From assembly GCA_027485675.1 (NCBI GenBank), contig JAIXQP010000030.1, positions 1-64,000 on the forward strand: 64,000 bases of DNA, in the 5' to 3' direction. Every line of letters begins with the position of its first letter. The first letter of the stretch is position 1. Below, in pieces: positions 3,953 to 38,788 of the stretch. This stretch comes from Terriglobales bacterium (GTDB lineage: Bacteria > Acidobacteriota > Terriglobia > Bryobacterales > Bryobacteraceae). The notes under the pieces were generated by a model that was given only the letters and a program-made list of their open reading frames with translations, ran no database searches and was not told where the DNA came from. Position numbers and translations under genes: made by a program.

Positions 3953-5145
3953 TCTCTTCCGCCCTGTTCGGCCAGTCGCTCCCCGATCAGGTCCTCCGCA
4001 TCATCCAAGCCAACCAGGCCTGGACCCTCGAGCAGCAACGCACCATCTGCGAAATCCCCGCCCCGCCCTTCAAGGAGAAGGTCCGCGGCATCGAGTACGC
4101 CAAGCGCCTCAAAGCCCTCGGCCTCGTCGATATCCGCACCGATTCCGAAGGCAACATCATCTCCCGCTGGCCCGGCTCCACGTCCCCGAAACCCGTCACC
4201 GTCTTCAGCGCCCACCTCGATACCGTCTTCCCCGAAGGCGTCGACGTCAAGGTCAAGACCGCCGGCACCCGCCTCACCGGGCCCGGCATCGGCGACGACT
4301 GCCGCGGCCTCGCCTCCGTCCTCACCGTCGCCAAGGCCTTTCAGGAAGCCAAGGTCAAAGTCGAAGGCACCATCCTCTTCGTCGCCACCGTGGGCGAGGA
4401 GGGCCAAGGCGACCTCCGCGGCGTCCGCCATCTCTTCACCAAGGAGATGAAGGGCCAGATCGATAACTTCATCTCCGTCGATGGCACCGCCTACGGCGTC
4501 ACCGCCCGCGGCGTCGGCTCCAACCGCTACAAGGTCACCTACTTCGGCCGCGGCGGCCACTCCTATGGCGCCTTCGGCATGCCGAATCCCGCCCACGCCA
4601 TGGGCCGCGCCATCGCCCGCATCAGCGATATCCAGGTCCCCAAGCAGCCCAAGACCACCTTCAACATCGGCACCGTCGAAGGCGGCACCAGCGTCAACTC
4701 CATCCCGATCTCGGTCTCGATGGAGGTCGACCTCCGCAGCGAATCCGCCTCCGAACTGGCCACGCTTGACGAGCGCTTCCGCGCCGCGCTGCAGTCCGCC
4801 CTCGAAGCAGAAAAAGCCCGCTGGCCGGATTCCACCGCGGCCCTCGAATTGAAGGTCGAGACCATGGGCCTCCGCCCCGCCGCGGAGCCGGCGGACTCCA
4901 CGCCCATCATCCAGAAGACCCTCGCCGCGGCCAAGCAGCTCGGCATCCCGGTCTTTGCGACCCGCAGCGGCAGCACGGACTCGAACATTCCCATGAGCCT
5001 CGGCATCCAGGCCGTCACCATCGGTGGCGGCGGCCAGGCCACCGGCGCCCACTCCGCCGACGAGTTCTACGAGGAGACCCCGGACTCCTATAAGGGACCG
5101 CAGATGGCCGCCCTCTTACTCTTCGGTCTCCATCCGCCCAAATGA
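3928..5145 (+). CDS. Exported M20 family metallopeptidase
   Basis: 405 aa. The N-terminus MRVSLLFLISSALFGQ is a signal peptide, so the enzyme is exported. M20 zinc ligands are recognisable: His96 and Asp98 in SAHLDTVF, Asp123 in GIGDDCRG, the catalytic Glu pair at 157-158 in GEEGQGDLRG, and a late His in TGAHSADEFY. The middle part is the dimerisation domain (FGRGGHSYG, VEGGTSVNSIP). Family members cleave small peptides or amide-linked amino acids; the exact substrate is unknown. The start overlaps the upstream oxidase by 25 bases and its TGA overlaps the next ATG (ATGA), so it belongs to the same translationally coupled operon. Confidence 0.9.
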   Translation: MRVSLLFLISSALFGQSLPDQVLRIIQANQAWTLEQQRTICEIPAPPFKEKVRGIEYAKRLKALGLVDIRTDSEGNIISRWPGSTSPKPVTVFSAHLDTVFPEGVDVKVKTAGTRLTGPGIGDDCRGLASVLTVAKAFQEAKVKVEGTILFVATVGEEGQGDLRGVRHLFTKEMKGQIDNFISVDGTAYGVTARGVGSNRYKVTYFGRGGHSYGAFGMPNPAHAMGRAIARISDIQVPKQPKTTFNIGTVEGGTSVNSIPISVSMEVDLRSESASELATLDERFRAALQSALEAEKARWPDSTAALELKVETMGLRPAAEPADSTPIIQKTLAAAKQLGIPVFATRSGSTDSNIPMSLGIQAVTIGGGGQATGAHSADEFYEETPDSYKGPQMAALLLFGLHPPK

Positions 5146-30404: not shown

Positions 30405-31008
30405 CTTTGACCCGGTGGCCGCGTGGTACCGCTATCTGGAGCGGCTGGGCTTTGGCGGCGCCTTGTGGCGGCGGCGCGTTGCGTATCTGCCGGAGCTCCG
30501 GGGCGCCCGCCGCGTGCTGATGGCCGGAGAAGGCGACGGCCGGTTTCTCCGGGCGTTCCTCGATAGCAATCCGTACGCCGCGGTGACGTATGTGGACGCG
30601 AGCGCACGGATGCTGGCGCTGGCGCGGCGCCGGGCGGGCGGCGAACGGGTCCAATATCTGCAGCGGGACTTGAGCGTGGGCGAACCGTTGGGCGGAGAAT
30701 TTGATGCGATCGTGACGCACTTCCTGCTCGATTGCTTTGGGCAGGACGAAGTGACTGAGGTGGTGCGCCGCTTGGGGCGGGCGCCCGTGTGGGTGGTGTC
30801 GGAGTTTCAGGCTCCCCACTGGGCCGCGCGGGCGGTTGTGAGCGCGCTGTACGCCTTCTTCGGCTGGACGACGGGCTTGCGAGTAACCCGGCTGCCGGAC
30901 TACGCCCCGGCGCTTCGCGCGGCCGGTTACGTCCTGGCCGAGAGGCAGGAGGCGTGGGGCCGGCTGTTGGTTTCCGAACTTTGGCGCCGCCGGGATAAGG
31001 TGGAGTAA
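30394..31008 (+). CDS. Class I SAM-dependent methyltransferase
   Basis: 204 aa. Motif I appears as VLMAGEGDGRFLRAF (residues about 41-55), with YVDASARML at motif II, and FDAIVTHFLLDCF at motif IV. The N-terminal FDPVAAWYRYLERLGFGG and the shape recall small-molecule or quinone methyltransferases; the target is unknown. The start overlaps the UbiA-like gene, and its TAA overlaps the cytochrome ATG (TAATG), so all three genes are translationally coupled. A pairing of UbiA-like and methyltransferase steps would suit modification of an isoprenoid quinone or lipid; that is inference. Confidence 0.78.
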   Translation: MPANFDPVAAWYRYLERLGFGGALWRRRVAYLPELRGARRVLMAGEGDGRFLRAFLDSNPYAAVTYVDASARMLALARRRAGGERVQYLQRDLSVGEPLGGEFDAIVTHFLLDCFGQDEVTEVVRRLGRAPVWVVSEFQAPHWAARAVVSALYAFFGWTTGLRVTRLPDYAPALRAAGYVLAERQEAWGRLLVSELWRRRDKVE

Positions 31009-32420
31009 TGTGGATTGCCCTGCTGGCCGCCGCGACCTGCCTGCCTTGCCATGAAGAGTTCGTTCGGTCGTACGCCAAGACCGGCATGGGCCGGTCCATC
31101 ACCAAACCGACGGCCGAACTGCAACTGCGGCAGGAAGGGGCGCACGGATCGGCGCGGTGGGTGGCGTGGTGGACGGGTAAGCAGTTGGCGCACGCCGTGA
31201 ACGAAGAGGCACGGACGATGGATTGGGCGGTGGGATCGGGCCGGGAGGGCAAGAGCTTCTTGTTCCGGCTGGGTGACGCGCTGTTTCAATCGCCCCTTTC
31301 CTGGTACGCGCGCCGGCGCGCCTGGGACCTTTCCCCCGGCTTTCACCGCGACCGCCGGCTGAGCTTCTTGCGGCCGGTGACGGCGGACTGCCTGCATTGC
31401 CACGCCGGCGAGTCAGCGCCCCTGGCCGGGACCCAGAACCGCTATGCGGAGAACCCGCTGCCGGCGCCGGCCATCACCTGCGAGCGCTGCCACGGCGACG
31501 CCTCCGCGCATGTCAAGGATCCGTTGCGGGCGAACATTGTGAACCCGCGGCGGCTGGCGGCGGTGGAGCGGGATAGCGTCTGCGAGCAGTGCCATCTGGG
31601 CGGCTCGGCGCGGGTGCTGAATCCGGGCAAGACTTGGGCGGATTTCCGGCCCGGCCTGGCGCTCGAAGCCGTGTTTTCCGTCTACGTGCCGAAGGCGCCG
31701 TCGGATCCGAACCGCATCAAGGTGGTTTCGCACTCCGAACAGTTGGCGCTGTCCAAGTGCAAGGCCGGATCGGGCGACCGGCTGTGGTGCGCGACCTGCC
31801 ACGATCCGCACCGGGAGCCGGAAGACTCCTTCGCCGAGCAGCAGGCCAAGTGCGTCAGTTGCCACCAAGGTACGAAGCCCCATGGTGACGCCTGCACGAC
31901 GTGCCATATGCCGCGCACCGAGACTTCCGACGGCGGGCATACCGCGTTTACCGATCACCGGATCCGCCGCCCCGGGGTGCCGAAGGTGCTGCTCGAACGT
32001 TCGGAGGAGCTGCGCGCCTGGCGCCCGTTGCCGGACGCCGGAGCGCGGGCGCGGGGCCTGGGACTGGCCTACGCAGGCGCGGGCCGCCTGGAGCAGGCCT
32101 ATGATTTGCTGCGGACCGTGGAGCGGCCCGATGCCGCCGTGCAGGATGCCCTGGGGCTGATCTATCTGCGGGCCGAACGCCCGGCGTTGGCCGTGGCCGC
32201 GCTGGCCGCCGCGGTGAAGGAAGACCCGAAAAACTCGGTGCGGCGGTTGAACCTGGCGGCGGCGTACCTGGCGGCCGGAGACCGGGAGAAAGCCCGCGCG
32301 GAGGCTATGGCCGCGATCGCCCTGGAACCCCTGCTGGAAGACGCCTATGCGTTACTCGCGGAGATCGAACCCCGGCGTGCCGAATACTGGCGCGCCGAGT
32401 TCACCAAGCGGCTTCGGTAG
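31008..32420 (+). CDS. Seven-heme c-type cytochrome with C-terminal TPR-like repeats
   Basis: 470 aa. Seven CxxCH heme sites are visible: CLPCH (residues 11-15), CLHCH, CERCH, CEQCH, CATCH, CVSCH and CTTCH. The arrangement is that of cytochrome c554/decaheme-like electron carriers. Residues about 350-470 are Ala/Leu-rich TPR-like helices (LGLAYAGAGRLEQAYDLL). The export signal is unusually short and uncharged (MWIALLAAAT), placing the first heme almost at the cleavage site. It acts in the periplasm in electron transfer. The gene ends in TAG at 32418, but the same frame continues into 147-bp copies of its own 3' end. Confidence 0.85.
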   Translation: MWIALLAAATCLPCHEEFVRSYAKTGMGRSITKPTAELQLRQEGAHGSARWVAWWTGKQLAHAVNEEARTMDWAVGSGREGKSFLFRLGDALFQSPLSWYARRRAWDLSPGFHRDRRLSFLRPVTADCLHCHAGESAPLAGTQNRYAENPLPAPAITCERCHGDASAHVKDPLRANIVNPRRLAAVERDSVCEQCHLGGSARVLNPGKTWADFRPGLALEAVFSVYVPKAPSDPNRIKVVSHSEQLALSKCKAGSGDRLWCATCHDPHREPEDSFAEQQAKCVSCHQGTKPHGDACTTCHMPRTETSDGGHTAFTDHRIRRPGVPKVLLERSEELRAWRPLPDAGARARGLGLAYAGAGRLEQAYDLLRTVERPDAAVQDALGLIYLRAERPALAVAALAAAVKEDPKNSVRRLNLAAAYLAAGDREKARAEAMAAIALEPLLEDAYALLAEIEPRRAEYWRAEFTKRLR

Positions 32421-32862
32421 TTCGAAGCCGATGCCGCCGTGCAGGATGCCCTGGGGCTGATCTACCTGCGGGCCGAACGTCCGGCGCTGGCCGTGGCCGC
32501 GCTGGCGGAGATCGAACCCCGGCGCGCCGAATCCTGGCGCGCCGAGTTCACCAAGCGGCTTCGGTGGTTAAAGGCCGATGCCGCCGGGCAGGATGCCCTG
32601 GGGCTGATCTCCCTGCGGGCCGAACGTCCGGCGCTGGCCGTCGCCGCGCTGGCGGAGATCGAACCCCGGCGCGCCGAATACTGGCGCGCCGAGTTCACCA
32701 AGCGGCTTCGGTAGTTCGAAGCCGATGCCGCCGTGCAGGATGCCCTGGGGTTGATCTCCCTGCGGGGCCGAGCGTCCGGCGCTGGCCATGGCCGCGCTGG
32801 CGGAGATCGAACCCCGGCGCGCCGTATCCTGGCGCGCCGAGTTTACCAAGCGGCTCCGGCAG
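32419..32862 (+). repeat. Three tandem 147-bp copies of the cytochrome gene 3' end
   Basis: Equivalent points recur at 32431, 32578 and 32725 (steps of exactly 147 bases, 49 codons); the matching point inside the cytochrome gene is 32131, 300 bases before the first copy. Each copy joins the segment encoding QDALGLIYLRAERPALAVAA to the segment encoding EIEPRRAEYWRAEFTKRLR, so all three share the same 51-codon in-frame deletion relative to the gene. Copies 1 and 2 are frame-intact; copy 3 has an extra G in its CTGCGGGG run. This is the only stretch over 300 bases without an assigned intact gene. The TonB receptor's stop codon lies at the very end of copy 3. Confidence 0.93.
32421..32714 (+). 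pseudogene. Detached in-frame extension of the cytochrome/TPR gene
   Basis: Immediately after the cytochrome TAG the frame stays open for 97 codons (copies 1 and 2) to a second TAG. The junction sequence is CGG TAG TTC after the gene and after copy 2, but CGG TGG TTA between copies 1 and 2, so a single G-to-A change separates a stop from a readable Trp. A GTG inside (32439) could start a 91-aa product, but no ribosome site is apparent. I read this as a repeat extension cut off by a stop, or duplications that arose after the stop. Confidence 0.55.
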
Positions 32863-35800
32863 TTAGAAGCGCAGGTACGCGCCGAACTGCACCACGCGCC
32901 GGCCCGACTGCGTGCCGACGATGCGGCCGAAGTTCACACTGTCGATGTTCTGATCGCCCATGAAGAAGCTGGGCGTGTTGGTCGAGTTCAACGCTTCCAT
33001 GCGGAGCGTCAAGCTGAGGCGTTCGGTGATCTTCGTTTGCTTCTCGCCCGAGAAATCGAGGTTGATGAAGCGAGGACCATAGAGCAGCCGCCGTTGCAGA
33101 GAACCGAGCGTCCCTTCGGCCGGGTGGAAGAAGACCTGGCCGCTGAAGGGCGCCCGGCCATCCGCCGCCGAGCCGCGGCCATCAGGGCCGAGGACGCCAG
33201 CGTTGAGGAAGAATACACCGTTGCCGGTCTTGCGGACTCCGGTGAGGTCGACCAGTTGCTCGTAGTTCAACGTCGTATTCACCGTGTTGATGCCCGAGCG
33301 CGCTGTCCGGTTCAGCGTACCGCGGCTCGAATAGATGCCAAAGGGCGAACCGGAGGTCAGGGTAAAGATCCCGCTGAGGTTCCAACCGCCAAAGATCTGG
33401 TTCAGCACCGGATTCCGGAGGTCCCAATGCCGGCCGCGGCCAAAGGGCAGTTCATAGACGCCATTGGCTTTCAGCGCATGGCGCTGGTCAAACGGCGACG
33501 GCGCCTTCTCGATGCTCGGGTTGTTGAGATCGAGGAACGGCTCAAAGCGCGCCTGCGCATCCCCCAGCGTGTCGCTAAGGCTCTTCGAGAAGACGTAGTT
33601 CACCTGGAACTCAAAGCCCTTCGAATACCGGCGGCGATAGTCCAACTGCAGCGAATGGTAGGTGGCATTCGAGTAGTTGGTCATCATGTTCGTGCCCAGG
33701 GCGTTGGGGTTGCGATAGAAGTTCACGTTGCCGTTCAGCCGGTTGACCTGATAGGTGTTGGCGAGTTCGCCCACCTGGCCGGAGTCGATCAAACCGCGAA
33801 TCGTCGTGTTGGTCAGCAGGCCACCGCTCGGGAGCGAGTTGAAGAACGGCGTCGGCTGGCTGCCGGCAATGTTGGGGTTGTAAGCCGGGTTGAAGGTGCC
33901 GGTGGCGTTCCGGGCCAGGTTGCCATTGTTGCGGGCGCGCTGGAAGTCTTCGAGAAGCCCGTTGTTGATGATCACCTGATTGAAGTCGAAGGCGCGGAAC
34001 TGCTTGGTGGCCTTGTTGCCGATGTAGGATACCTGCAGGACACCCTTCGAGATTTCCCGCTGCACGCTGAAGTTCCACTGCTGCACATACGGCGTCACCA
34101 GATCCGGATTCGGCATGCCGAAGGCGGTCTGCGTGTTGACCGCGTAGTTCTGGGCGAAGGTGCGCGGAGCCGTGAAGGTCGGGGTGGTGAGGGCGGGCAG
34201 AGTGGAGCTGATGGTCTGCGTCAGGTTGATGCGGTTCGCCCCGGTGGAAAGCCCTTCGCTGGTCGAGACGTTGTTGTCGATCGACCGGATGAACTCGTCG
34301 TTCGGGAAGTTCACACTGTAGCCGGCGCGGATCACCGTCTTGTCGCCAAACGGACGCCACGCAATGCCGAGGTTGGGACCGAAGTTGTTCAGGTCGCGCT
34401 TGTAGTAGGGGCGGCCGACGGACGTCCCGGCAAAGTCCAGCGTGCCGTTCGGATTGAGCAGCGTCTGCTCGGCGTTGTTGTTCTGCAGCACCGGCACGAA
34501 GGTCAAGCCGTTGAGCTCCGTCACGGGCGTGAAGTACTCCCAGCGGGTGCCGATGTGGATGGTGAACCGTTCGTTGACGCGCCAGTTGTCATTGAAGTAG
34601 AAGGCGTGGTTATCCAGGCGCCAATTGCGAATGTTCGGTGCGCCCGGGACGAAGCCGCTCGAGCGATCGAGTACGTTGAACGTCTGCGCGACGGAAGCGA
34701 GGATGCCGGCGTGCAGCGTCAACAGGCTGGCTCCGGTGCCGAGGTCGGTGACGCGAACGCCCGGGATCAGCGCGTTCACGTCCAGTTGGTTGGCGGCGCT
34801 GAGACCGATGCCATACGTGGGCAGGTTGCCTGCTTCGTTGAACGACTTCACGTTGATCCGCTGCCCTTGGTAGCCGAACTGGAAGGTGTGGCGATTCTTC
34901 ACCCAGGTGGCGTTGTCCTGCCAGTTAAAGGTGTCGGTGTAGCGGCCCTGCGACCGGAAGGTGTTCACGGGATTGGAGACCAGAGGGAGCGCGAAGATCT
35001 GATTGCCGAAGCTCTCACCCGAGGTGAAGACGGCCGGGGCGATGTTCATGCCGCCGCGCGCTTCGTTGGTGAAGGTCGGCGAGGCCGTCCAGCGCCAGGT
35101 GGTGGAGAGCAGCGGCGTCGAGTTGTCGTTCTGCACCTTGGGAGCCGTGGAGTAATCGTTCGACAGGTCCGGACGATCGACTATGTCCCGGTTCCAGATG
35201 TAGCTCGCGCTGAAGCCGTGCTTGGAGTTCAGCACGTAGTCCAGCTTGAAGGTCGCGTTGTCGCGGGTGCGGTTATTGCGGACATTGAACTGATAGCCAC
35301 CGATATTCAGGTGACGGCCCGCCGCCGCGTTGAAGTCGCCGACGTCCTGGCGGTTGATATTACTCGCGCCGGGGACCTGACCGATGAGGGCGCGGGTGGT
35401 GGGATTAGCCGGGAGTCCGGAAGCGCGCAGCATATCCACTTGCCGCAGATTGCCGGCTGTATCGAGATAGGTGAAGATTCCCTGCCGGGCGGACTCGGTG
35501 AGAATCACGCGCGTGCCCGCCGTCTGCTGGCGCAGCCGGAAGGCTTCGTAGTTGGCATAGAAGAACAGCTTGTCCTTCTTGATGGGGCCGCCGAGGCTGC
35601 CGCCAATCTGGTTCTGATTCAGAAACGGGCGCGGGGTGCGGTTGGCGTTCGAGAACCAGGGGTTGGCCGCAAACTCGTTGTTCCGGTTAAACCAGAACAA
35701 CCCACCTTTGTACTTGTTGGTGCCGGAGGGAGTCGTGAACGTCACCTGGGCGGCGCCATTGCCCAACGACGGGTTGGCGTTCGAGGTGCTCAGGGTGACT

Positions 35801-36429
35801 TCGGCCACCTGGTCGAGCAGGAGAAGATTGGGGAGGAAGTCGAGGCCGTTCGAGCGGATGAAGTTGTCCTGGATGTTGATGCCGTCCAGGGTGACGTTGG
35901 CGTAGGAGACGCGCAAGCCATTGATGGTGGTGTTCGCGCGGCCGTTCGAGCCGAAGCCGGCTTGCGTGGAGAGCAGCGCCAGCGGGCTCCGGTTGGCGGT
36001 AGGCAGGCGCGAAAGCTGGTTCGAGGTGATCACCGAGGTGATCTCGGCATTGGACGTCTGCAGCACCACGGACTCGGCCTGGACTTCAACGACGGACGAC
36101 ACGCTCGCTACTTCGAGCTTGATCTCCTGCACGGGGGTTTCAAGGCCCGCTCCCACGCGGACGTTGCGCAGGATCGCCTTGCTGAAGCCGGGTGCTTCCA
36201 CCGAAAGATCGTACTCCCCAGCGCGCAGGCCGGCGAAGACGTAGGTACCGGCATCGGTGGTCTTGGTTCCATATTGCGCGTTCGCCGATCCCGGCAAACT
36301 AAGCGAGACAGCGGCTCCGGACACGGGCGCCCCGGCCGGATCATTCACAGTCCCGGAAATGCGGCCCAAATTCTGGGCCTGCAGACACACGGCGGCTAAG
36401 GACGCCAAAAGAGCGAGTTTCAAATTCAT
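32863..36429 (-). CDS. Large TonB-dependent receptor, Oar-like, with carboxypeptidase-regulatory domain
   Basis: 1188 aa. After a signal peptide (MNLKLALLASLAAVCLQAQ) comes a carboxypeptidase-regulatory/CNA-B-like domain (GRISGTVNDPAGAPVSGAAV, residues about 22-105), then a plug domain (TTINGLRVSYANVTLDGINI, about 150-250), then an outer-membrane beta-barrel to the end (repeated aromatic strand endings, final GAYLRF). This architecture is characteristic of the many Oar-like receptors of Solibacter-type acidobacteria, which import large or scarce substrates; the ligand is unknown. The ATG at 36429 fits the signal peptide. The long antisense frame is a shadow. The stop lies in the last bases of the 147-bp repeat array. 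Confidence 0.93.
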   Translation of the reverse strand: MNLKLALLASLAAVCLQAQNLGRISGTVNDPAGAPVSGAAVSLSLPGSANAQYGTKTTDAGTYVFAGLRAGEYDLSVEAPGFSKAILRNVRVGAGLETPVQEIKLEVASVSSVVEVQAESVVLQTSNAEITSVITSNQLSRLPTANRSPLALLSTQAGFGSNGRANTTINGLRVSYANVTLDGINIQDNFIRSNGLDFLPNLLLLDQVAEVTLSTSNANPSLGNGAAQVTFTTPSGTNKYKGGLFWFNRNNEFAANPWFSNANRTPRPFLNQNQIGGSLGGPIKKDKLFFYANYEAFRLRQQTAGTRVILTESARQGIFTYLDTAGNLRQVDMLRASGLPANPTTRALIGQVPGASNINRQDVGDFNAAAGRHLNIGGYQFNVRNNRTRDNATFKLDYVLNSKHGFSASYIWNRDIVDRPDLSNDYSTAPKVQNDNSTPLLSTTWRWTASPTFTNEARGGMNIAPAVFTSGESFGNQIFALPLVSNPVNTFRSQGRYTDTFNWQDNATWVKNRHTFQFGYQGQRINVKSFNEAGNLPTYGIGLSAANQLDVNALIPGVRVTDLGTGASLLTLHAGILASVAQTFNVLDRSSGFVPGAPNIRNWRLDNHAFYFNDNWRVNERFTIHIGTRWEYFTPVTELNGLTFVPVLQNNNAEQTLLNPNGTLDFAGTSVGRPYYKRDLNNFGPNLGIAWRPFGDKTVIRAGYSVNFPNDEFIRSIDNNVSTSEGLSTGANRINLTQTISSTLPALTTPTFTAPRTFAQNYAVNTQTAFGMPNPDLVTPYVQQWNFSVQREISKGVLQVSYIGNKATKQFRAFDFNQVIINNGLLEDFQRARNNGNLARNATGTFNPAYNPNIAGSQPTPFFNSLPSGGLLTNTTIRGLIDSGQVGELANTYQVNRLNGNVNFYRNPNALGTNMMTNYSNATYHSLQLDYRRRYSKGFEFQVNYVFSKSLSDTLGDAQARFEPFLDLNNPSIEKAPSPFDQRHALKANGVYELPFGRGRHWDLRNPVLNQIFGGWNLSGIFTLTSGSPFGIYSSRGTLNRTARSGINTVNTTLNYEQLVDLTGVRKTGNGVFFLNAGVLGPDGRGSAADGRAPFSGQVFFHPAEGTLGSLQRRLLYGPRFINLDFSGEKQTKITERLSLTLRMEALNSTNTPSFFMGDQNIDSVNFGRIVGTQSGRRVVQFGAYLRF

Positions 36430-36469
36430 ACTTTCCCCAACTGACAGCGTTAGGGGCAGTTTACTGAAG

Positions 36470-38788
36470 TCACCGGCTCCAGCGCCAGTCTCGAATTTCC
36501 GGCATGTCTTCGCCATGGGTGGCGACGTAGGAGCGGTGCTGGCGCAGTTTGTCTTCAAGGCGCAGAATCGCGGGGTGGTTTCCGTGGCCGGTCCGCTTCA
36601 ACGCATCGCAGGCCAGTTGGAAACGGTCGAGGTTGTTGAGCACCGTCATGTCGAACGGCGTGGTGGTGGTTCCCTCTTCCTTGTACCCGCGGACGTGCAA
36701 ATGATCGTGATTGTGCCGCCGGTAGGTGAGCCGGTGGATCAGCCACGGATAACCGTGGAAGGCAAAGATGACCGGGGTTTCACTCGGGAAGATGGCGTCA
36801 TAGCTCGAGTCGTCCCAACCATGCGAATGCTCGTTACGGGGCTGCAACGCCATCAGATTCACGATGTTGATCACGCGGATCTTCAGCTCCGGCGCCATAT
36901 CCCGCAGATAGGTCACGGCGGCGAGCGTTTCGAGGGTCGGGACATCACCGCAGCACGCCATCACCACATCGGGAGTTCCTTCATCGCAGGCCCAGTGCCA
37001 GATGCTCATCCCGGTGCGGCAGTGCTCCTCGGCCTCCGTGATGTTCAGCCACTGGGGCTGCGGCTGTTTGCCGGCCACGATCACGTTGACGTAATGTTTC
37101 GAGCGCAGGCAGTGCTCGGTTACCGTGAGCAGGGTGTTGGCGTCCGGCGGCAGATAGACGCGGATCACCTCCGCCTTCTTATTCACGACATGGTCGATAA
37201 AGCCGGGGTCCTGATGCGAAAATCCGTTGTGGTCCTGGCGCCAGACGTGGGACGTCAGCAGGTAGTTCAGCGACGAAACCGGCGGACGCCACTTCATCTC
37301 CCGCGTGGTCTTCAACCATTTGGCGTGCTGGTTGAACATGGAACCGACGATGTGGATGAAGGCCTCGTAGCAGGAGAAGAGGCCATGACGCCCCGTGAGC
37401 AGGTAGCCTTCGAGCCAACCCTGGCACAGGTGCTCGCTGAGCACTTCCATCACCCGGCCCTGCGGTCCCAGCCGCTCATCCACCGGTAGGATTTCGGCCG
37501 CCCAAGCCTTTTCGGTGACCTCCAGCACGGCGCCGAGACGGTTCGACTGAGTCTCGTCGGGGCCGAAGACGCGGAAGTTCTGCTGGGTTTCGTTGGTGGA
37601 CATCACATCCCGCAGGTAACCGCCCAGGATGCGGGTGGACTCGGCGTCGTGGGCGCCCGGCGCGGCGACGGGTACGGCATGTTTCCGGAAGTCCGGCAGG
37701 TGGAGATCTTTCCGCAGCAGCCCGCCGTTGGCGTGTGGATTGGCGCCCATGCGGCGGTGGCCGTGGGGAGCCAGATCGAGGATGGCCTGCACCGGTCGGC
37801 CGCTGGGCTCAAAGAGCTCCTCGGGCCGGTAGCTCTTCATCCACTCTTCGAGCAGCGTGACGTGCCCCGGCTTGGTGGCCATTTCGGCGAAGGGCACCTG
37901 ATGGGAGCGCCAGGTGTTCTCCGTGGGTTTGCCATCGACGAACTTCGGCCCCGTCCACCCCTTCGGACTGCGCAGGATGATCATCGGCCAGTGGGGCCGC
38001 TCCGTCTCGGACGAGGCCTTGATGCGCGCGATCTCATCGAGGCACTGGTCCATGGCCGCGGCCATCTTGCCGTGCATCTCCTGCGGGTCGGAGCCCTCCA
38101 CCAGAATCGGCGCATAGCCATAACCGCGAAAGAGCTCGAGCAGTTCCGGCCTGGGAATGCGATCGAGCAGCGTGGGGTTGGCAATCTTGTAGCCGTTCAA
38201 ATGCAGCACCGGCAGCACGGCGCCATCCCGGTGGCGGTCGAGGAATTTATTCGAATGCCAGCTCGCCGCGCAAGCGCCCGTCTCCGCTTCGCCATCGCCG
38301 ACGACGCACATCACCACCAGATCCGGGTTGTCGAACGCCGCGCCATAGGCGTGCAACAGGGCATAGCCCAGTTCCCCGCCCTCATGAATGGAGCCTGGCG
38401 TTTCAGGCGCAACATGGCTCGGAATCCCGTACGGCCAGGAGAACTGCCGGAACAGTAGCCGCAGGCCTTCGAGGTCCCAGCCGATGTGCGGATAGATCTC
38501 CCGGTAGGAGCCTTCGAGATAGGTGGACGCCACCAGGCCGGGCCCCCCGTGACCGGGCCCGATGATGTACATCATGTTCAGGTCGCGCTCGACAATCACT
38601 CGATTGCAGTGCGCGTAGATGAAGTTCAAACCCGGCGTGGTGCCCCAATGGCCGAGGAGCCGGGGCTTCACGTGGTCGAGCGTTAAGGGCTCCCGCAGCA
38701 GCGGATTGTCCTTGAGATAGATCTGGCCGACCGACAGATAGTTGGCCGCCCTCCACCAGGCATCGAGCGCAGCGAAGTCCTTGGTCAT
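36470..38788 (-). CDS. xfp: Phosphoketolase (Xfp family)
   Basis: 772 aa, slightly shorter than the usual 790-830. It cleaves xylulose-5-phosphate and/or fructose-6-phosphate with phosphate to acetyl phosphate plus an aldose phosphate, using thiamine diphosphate. The TPP/Mg motif begins GDGEAETG at residues 164-171; the N-terminus [21 protein letters not shown] and the IGPGHGGPG and [10 protein letters not shown] segments are typical. A Shine-Dalgarno AGGA lies 7 bases before the ATG. With the PEP carboxykinase gene nearby, it points to flexible central carbon flux. Confidence 0.95.

Follow-up and report, generated by a model that had tools for sequence, protein, structure and literature searches.

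Tandem gene-tail copies at a convergent junction in a Terriglobales genome, a probable junction duplication with counterparts at other gene ends

The window, the whole 64,000-nucleotide stretch of Terriglobales DNA analysed here, contains a tandem array between two genes that face each other tail to tail. It is best explained as a junction-duplication array: the point at which the two convergent genes meet would have undergone a short tandem duplication, a reading to which we give a probability of about 0.7. The repeat unit itself looks like a junction duplication in its letters, with last bases that resemble the stop region of the facing gene. The genome is called G000 in what follows, its sister G001, and a congener that was also sampled G017. 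The features of the locus are listed below.

31008–32420, + strand: parent gene, a multihaem cytochrome c with C-terminal TPRs, 470 aa (open reading frame; Pfam)
32127–32204, + strand: first parental block, a 78-bp piece of the gene tail (the deletion boundary fits best at 78; the copies match 32128–32206 in BLAST)
32205–32357, + strand: 153 bp (51 codons) of the gene that copies c1, c2 and c3 all lack
32358–32426, + strand: second parental block, the final 63 bp of the gene with its TAG, plus 6 bp resembling the stop region of the facing gene (Tandem Repeats Finder; by eye against 32863–32868)
32418–32420, + strand: TAG stop of the parent gene (orthologues end at the corresponding place)
32427–32573, + strand: copy c1, 147 bp, TGG at the stop position
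32520–32544, no strand assigned: inverted repeat or RNA hairpin in the unit (c1 coordinates; found in every copy; folding z of −1.6, −2.2 and −3.4 for the copies on the + strand)
32574–32720, + strand: copy c2, 147 bp, TAG at the stop position
32721–32868, + strand: copy c3, 148 bp through one additional G, with CAG where the gene has its TAG; the end of the facing gene forms its final bases
32863–36558, − strand: facing convergent gene, an outer-membrane beta-barrel with a carboxypeptidase-regulatory-like domain (open reading frame; Pfam OMP_b-brl_4, 2.6e-146, and CarboxypepD_reg, 1.8e-17)

Tandem Repeats Finder places the array at 32358–32870 with a period of 147 bp, 3.5 copies, 92% matches and a score of 891; the remaining five rows of the window score just 50–70, far below the array. 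The parent gene matches the Pfam families Cytochrome_C7 (2.6e-07) and TPR_19 (4.7e-06), and seven CXXCH motifs were counted by eye in its protein. The frame of the facing gene is also open, and its stop codon (32863–32865) lies inside the last copy, c3. The original prediction, made from the sequence of this locus, described tandem copies of the gene's own 3' end, and these are real: two 147-bp copies and one 148-bp copy follow the TAG. As it stated, c1 and c2 are open in the frame of the gene, and c3 is shifted by a single extra G. It also proposed that one duplicate was shortened before it was amplified, an order supported by the single 153-bp (51-codon) deletion common to all three copies. 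Its account of the junction codon, TAG twice and TGG once, is correct for the gene (TAG), c1 (TGG) and c2 (TAG) but leaves out the CAG of c3. Since a TAG precedes every copy, the repeats would fall outside the translated frame.

The copies differ from the gene at 8–15 of 147 sites (5–10%) and from each other at 8–11 of 147 sites, the extra base of c3 being left out; this copy-to-copy divergence of 5–7.5% includes private changes, accompanied by an indel. The array probably postdates the species split, because the gene and its copies have diverged by only 5–10% and the dS of the gene to six orthologues is 0.8–1.4. A DNA search of 19 genomes of the genus, including G000, with a 300-bp query found the tandem unit in G000 alone and there at its own locus alone, which rules out a dispersed repeat family of the REP or MIRU type. 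With head-to-tail copies outside intact coding sequence, the array qualifies as a bacterial intergenic tandem repeat of the minisatellite or VNTR type. It also has the marks of a junction-duplication array: the unit derives from flanking gene ends, both neighbours are open to their own stops, and orthologous junctions exist without the array, the same facing gene being verified in two relatives (L003 and L005) only. The right, facing gene supplies only about 6 bp of the unit in the window, and has a larger share in other arrays.

A protein search of 41 genomes, including G000, gave a match in each, and the downstream DNA was read at 12 loci (L001–L012), of which L002–L010 are the closest homologues outside G000. 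The sister G001 yielded no orthologue of the cytochrome gene in this search. Six of the nine relatives (L002–L007) have TAG at the aligned last codon, and in the other three (L008–L010) the stop lies one residue further. No copy was found directly behind the stop in any of the nine, two of which meet a contig edge after 94 bp (L004) and 21 bp (L007). The comparison of tail lengths among orthologues, put forward as a check on the original prediction, thus speaks against a changing protein tail. L003 (90% identity) and L005 (88% over the last 490 residues) have the facing gene of the window; in L002, L006 and L008–L010 another, distantly similar gene stands there (23–30% identity). In L005, the cytochrome gene and the same facing gene overlap by 4 bp, and no copies are present; in L002 and L006, the cytochrome gene overlaps the other, different facing gene, also by 4 bp. 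Comparison with the same neighbours as in the window is provided by L005 and L003 only, L003 holds another insert, and the overlap taken as ancestral is that of L005. The insert of L003 (2915–3089, which is 4415–4589 of L031 in the same record; genome G009) consists of two copies of a different, 93-bp repeat between the same two genes, and by eye L004 and L007 begin much like this repeat after the stop. In a distant cytochrome relative (L040, 42% identity), the stop is followed at 4302–4580 by a tail copy that has lost internal sequence and is partly in frame; a convergent gene lies beyond it.

Loci for four further array-bearing junctions were found by searching the genus with a neighbour protein. 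At all four, Tandem Repeats Finder (period of at least 40) detected an array in G000 alone among 12, 3, 6 and 12 loci, counts that include the G000 locus and several loci that have other neighbours or end early. At the L148 junction (contig C3), both genes are kept in G001 and G017 (left gene 87 and 77% identical) and overlap by 26 bp, and at the L143 junction (C7), both are likewise kept in these two genomes (right gene 75 and 89%) with an overlap of 4 bp. At the L195 junction (C9:156644), five relatives keep both genes (93–95%), which do not overlap there and are separated by gaps of about 30 to 344 bp. The widest of these gaps, in G016, contains a worn second copy of the facing-gene tail at 66% identity (L285, about 1217–1366; G016:C1:72974-73123). 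Relatives therefore show overlap at three of the four junctions with the same neighbours, that of the window (L005) included. Two further neighbour-protein searches gave extra tail-only matches in G000, and across six such searches the one clear tail-only second match outside G000 was that of G016; a split match in G015 resembles a frameshift, and one G006 locus was fragmented. Overlap is the usual state of convergent pairs, and the arrays are not shown to prefer it, because 109 of the 207 convergent pairs sampled in G000 overlap (62 of them by exactly 4 bp). An overlap of exactly 4 bp is also seen in 20 of 92 convergent pairs in G017.

Similar structures recur at other junctions of the genome. 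The survey covered 1,894,847 bp of G000 (about 29%) and 800,000 bp of G017 (two contigs, about 11%). Genes were called by our own ORF script, not by standard gene calls, and the sequences were then analysed with Tandem Repeats Finder and self-BLAST. Tandem Repeats Finder located G000 arrays with a period of at least 100 at six convergent, three codirectional and no divergent junctions, with three more inside genes and one at a contig edge; the three G017 arrays with a period of at least 50 were all intragenic. Self-BLAST was restricted to direct repeats of at least 45 bp with 80% identity and an offset below 1000 bp, and two contig-edge and six intragenic clusters were removed before orientations were counted. 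The G000 clusters that touch gene junctions then number 21 (11 convergent, 8 codirectional and 2 divergent). The same criteria gave no cluster outside genes in 0.8 Mb of G017, where two matches with offsets of 1494 and 1266 bp, above the limit of 1000, were left out. Three sampled contig ends of G000 (C3 end, C10 start and C18 end; L186, L188 and L167) lie inside tandem arrays, and arrays may therefore break the assembly and be undercounted.

Convergent junctions account for 207 of the 1427 junctions in the G000 sample (14.5% expected), and when unit-sized intervals are placed at random, 13.8% of those that touch a junction are convergent. The corresponding excess among duplications has P = 5.1e-5 for the 11 of 21 self-BLAST clusters and P = 5.3e-4 for the six of nine Tandem Repeats Finder arrays. 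Fisher tests of G000 against G017 gave P = 4.7e-4 for all junctions and P = 0.016 for convergent ones. The idea of a convergent bias arose after the first 1.5 Mb and hence on part of the data on which it was tested; in the 0.4 Mb of G000 fetched afterwards, four of seven self-BLAST clusters were convergent. Cutting the G000 sample into 7.4-kb pieces left 10 convergent, 8 codirectional and 2 divergent clusters, and G017 treated in this way gave none. Eighty loci from other Acidobacteria (532,983 bp), centred on relatives of the cytochrome gene and with G017's among them, held two convergent, one codirectional and two intragenic cases. These three junction duplications weaken the idea that such duplications are unique to G000: junction duplication is not confined to this genome, which is not shown to be unusual, the rate elsewhere being uncertain. 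Some assignments reflect the gene caller, which overlooked a small ferredoxin-like gene on the + strand at C9:185817 and therefore counted the array there as codirectional (convergent by eye); it also predicted two short ORFs within arrays. Of the two divergent cases, C6:45335 resembles a pair of duplicated genes.

Parts of both neighbours are present in seven of the 11 convergent cases, and at least four show internal deletions. The arrays that were dissected are as follows.

L148, 12335–13116: array of 143 bp x 5.5, tails of a TPR-like gene and of a facing RibBA-like gene (named by eye), each of the two sides lacking some stretches
L143, 14632–15019: array of 194 bp x 2, a plain duplication across both tails
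L116, 8633–8891: array of 126 bp x 2.1, in which 35 bp from the very end of a tRNA-Leu gene region are joined to facing-gene pieces, with about 120 bp skipped
L195, 16644–17453: array of 137 bp x 5.9, part of the facing gene and sequence just past the left gene
L185, 4786–5311: array with both tails
L199, 2482–3327: array with both tails
L179, 9853–10842 (G000:C6:49853-50842): array with both tails
L197, 5817–6512: array of 230 bp x 3, both tails by eye, counted as codirectional by the gene caller

Both neighbours are open to their own stops at L148 and L143, as in the window. The remaining four of the 11 convergent clusters (C9:156644, C10:39340, C7:169860 and C10:109957) consist of facing-gene and intergenic DNA only, and in two codirectional arrays (C9:46799 and C9:120284) the end of one gene is joined to material at the start of the next. 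The wider region of the tRNA array (L116 8473–8891) repeats the 3' end of the tRNA-Leu gene twice amid facing-gene pieces. In L179, the 175-bp convergent junction forms a direct repeat (95%) around a 640-bp insert with what appear by eye to be toxin-antitoxin remnants, an arrangement resembling an insertion whose target duplication is very long. The motif TTGGCTTCGTTTCGT, perhaps a small dispersed repeat, occurs 22 times in the 1.89 Mb of G000 and seven times in the 0.8 Mb of G017, at some array ends among other places (e.g. L201 19651–20000).

A plausible course of events can be drawn from these comparisons. The two genes of the window would originally have stood tail to tail with their stop codons overlapping by 4 bp, as they do in L005. 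A tandem duplication would then have copied a segment that took in the left gene's end together with a few bases from the end of the right gene, such that the left gene kept the first tail copy, the right gene kept its own end at the last copy, and neither was damaged. One copy would later have lost 153 internal bp, and the shortened unit may have been raised to three copies by slippage or unequal recombination, after which the copies would have drifted, presumably free of selection. The unit would be in frame by chance, and comparable events would have taken place at other G000 junctions, most often convergent ones. Because a tandem duplication over a tail-to-tail junction leaves both genes intact, such duplications can survive, be trimmed and re-amplify; intact neighbours and spare, free copies thus explain the shared internal deletions, the mixed units and the absence of frame. 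The same argument fits any junction, and something more must therefore account for the convergent excess: either insertions are tolerated best at convergent ends, where no promoters or ribosome sites are disturbed, or these ends duplicate more often. Several observations count against the explanation by junction duplication, among them the partly in-frame tail copy of L040, which it must treat as coincidence, the small share of the right gene in the unit of the window, the four convergent clusters that draw on one neighbour only, and the gaps in place of an overlap at C9:156644.

The original prediction saw a protein repeat array, with the tail lengthened or shortened through the TAG/TGG state and 49-codon units added to the TPR region. 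The 49-codon unit, the in-frame joins, the open frame through c1 and c2 and the comparable copy in L040 would all fit such a history. It is left unsupported, however, by the stop position kept in the nine relatives, and 51 codons of the TPR region are absent from the unit. The sites that vary among c1–c3 are spread over codon positions 1, 2 and 3 as 2/4/4, without bias (10 sites only). The gene itself differs from its G017 orthologue at 54/27/194 sites by codon position, with a dN/dS of about 0.07 (0.074/1.01); among the copies, synonymous and nonsynonymous changes are about equally frequent, in numbers too small to exclude weak constraint. Elsewhere in the sampled part of G000, the unit length is not divisible by three in five of the nine junction arrays with a period of at least 100 (143, 194, 137, 230 and 163), and some units hold the 3' end of a tRNA gene or the ends of genes on the opposite strand. 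The conserved stops, the codon positions and the out-of-frame arrays at other junctions together appear to rule out the protein-repeat or readthrough reading, to which we assign a very low probability. An artefact of the draft assembly is less probable still and hardly credible: the three contig ends inside arrays mean that copy numbers may be wrong, but copies that differ by 5–7.5% with private changes and an indel are unlike a falsely repeated contig segment, and arrays with different units recur at other places. A functional role, with the tandem hairpins acting as two-way transcription terminators or the arrays as spacers between converging polymerases, is also improbable, if somewhat less so than readthrough. 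Each unit in the window has a strong hairpin, hairpin-like inserts stand before the different facing gene in L008–L010 (by eye), convergent junctions overall fold better than random stretches (P = 1.7e-4), and arrays do create space. Nevertheless, the best local hairpins of 10 array units did not differ from those of 198 other convergent junctions, a few of which may hold duplications of their own (P = 0.37), no terminator-like site was found within the window array, and the arrays are not common to different species. Terminator hairpins were accordingly rejected as the function, being present yet no stronger than at other convergent junctions.

A further alternative concerns the origin of the excess. 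Convergent junctions may be mutational hot spots at which clashing transcription or opposed nicks produce breaks, with fill-in and joining then duplicating the segment between. In animal cells, nearby opposite-strand nicks lead to breaks and to tandem duplications, a process that is largely Ku80-dependent and prefers 3' overhangs, according to the sections of PMC8355091 drawn on here. The enrichment at convergent junctions (11 of 21 junction duplications), the inclusion of both neighbours in seven of 11 convergent cases, the breakpoint homology of 0 and about 4 bp in the two simplest duplications (by eye) and the 175-bp junction duplication on both sides of the 640-bp insert would all be in keeping with such a process. 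On the other hand, the animal-cell process in those sections largely needs Ku80, and Ku was not found in G000 (97% complete). Ku was not found in G017 either and is present in three of the 19 genomes (G001, G003 and G011); Ku-type end joining is thereby ruled out as a lineage-specific cause. Loss of RNase H is ruled out as well, since G000 has both families (RNase HI and HII), whose absence cannot then explain extra R-loops. One array (C10:39651) has a 20-bp repeat at its ends, and survival bias predicts an identical enrichment. We regard a mutational hot spot as unlikely, although it is the most probable of these alternatives; between a hot spot and better tolerance or survival, the present evidence separates neither.

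If the reading of the window as a junction duplication is extended, tandem duplication at tail-to-tail junctions could be a recurrent bacterial route by which overlapping convergent genes become separated, with spare copies turning into arrays that are trimmed and re-amplified. We offer this broader proposal tentatively, as a possibility with the odds against it. If it is true, each gene gains its own copy of the shared end, and the two tails are free to evolve apart. Compact genomes often contain convergent genes that overlap, and the undoing of overlaps is seldom visible; the overlapping ends of G000, at 109 of 207 convergent pairs, would be plentiful raw material. Apparent intermediates are preserved here at several junctions, with the overlapping state in relatives at three. 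The locus also carries a warning, that in-frame copies of a gene tail behind a stop need not signal switching of protein length.

The class of object, an intergenic tandem repeat, is known. No paper on tandem duplication at bacterial convergent gene ends appeared among the matches listed (titles and abstract openings), which is weak evidence of absence, and on that weak evidence the link to convergent ends and the two-tail units were not found in print. The MIRU of mycobacteria are a dispersed family of one related sequence; they resemble the present arrays in having tandem units that touch gene ends, and differ in that the window unit is found at its own locus only. Tandem repeats of Borgs, which are archaeal elements, are perfect and A-rich, and roughly half of them lie between genes or begin within gene ends (parts of PMC9879509). 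On that partial account, they share with the present arrays a genome-specific, recent and independent origin, whereas the G000 units are diverged and GC-rich, several combining the ends of two genes; an orientation bias of Borg repeats has no mention in 12 of 22 places of the same source. The small tandem duplications at DNA breaks in animal cells, as covered by the sections of PMC8355091 cited above, are alike in that the segment between two breaks is locally duplicated, and differ in being largely Ku-dependent, whereas no Ku was found in G000 and trimming and amplification follow the duplication. The closest likeness in form is to bacterial intergenic tandem repeats, the VNTR-type minisatellites, which are also head-to-tail, intergenic and diverging; in contrast to these, the units described here can be recognised as pieces of the 3' end of a flanking gene, and often of both neighbours; they carry internal deletions, and convergent junctions are over-represented.
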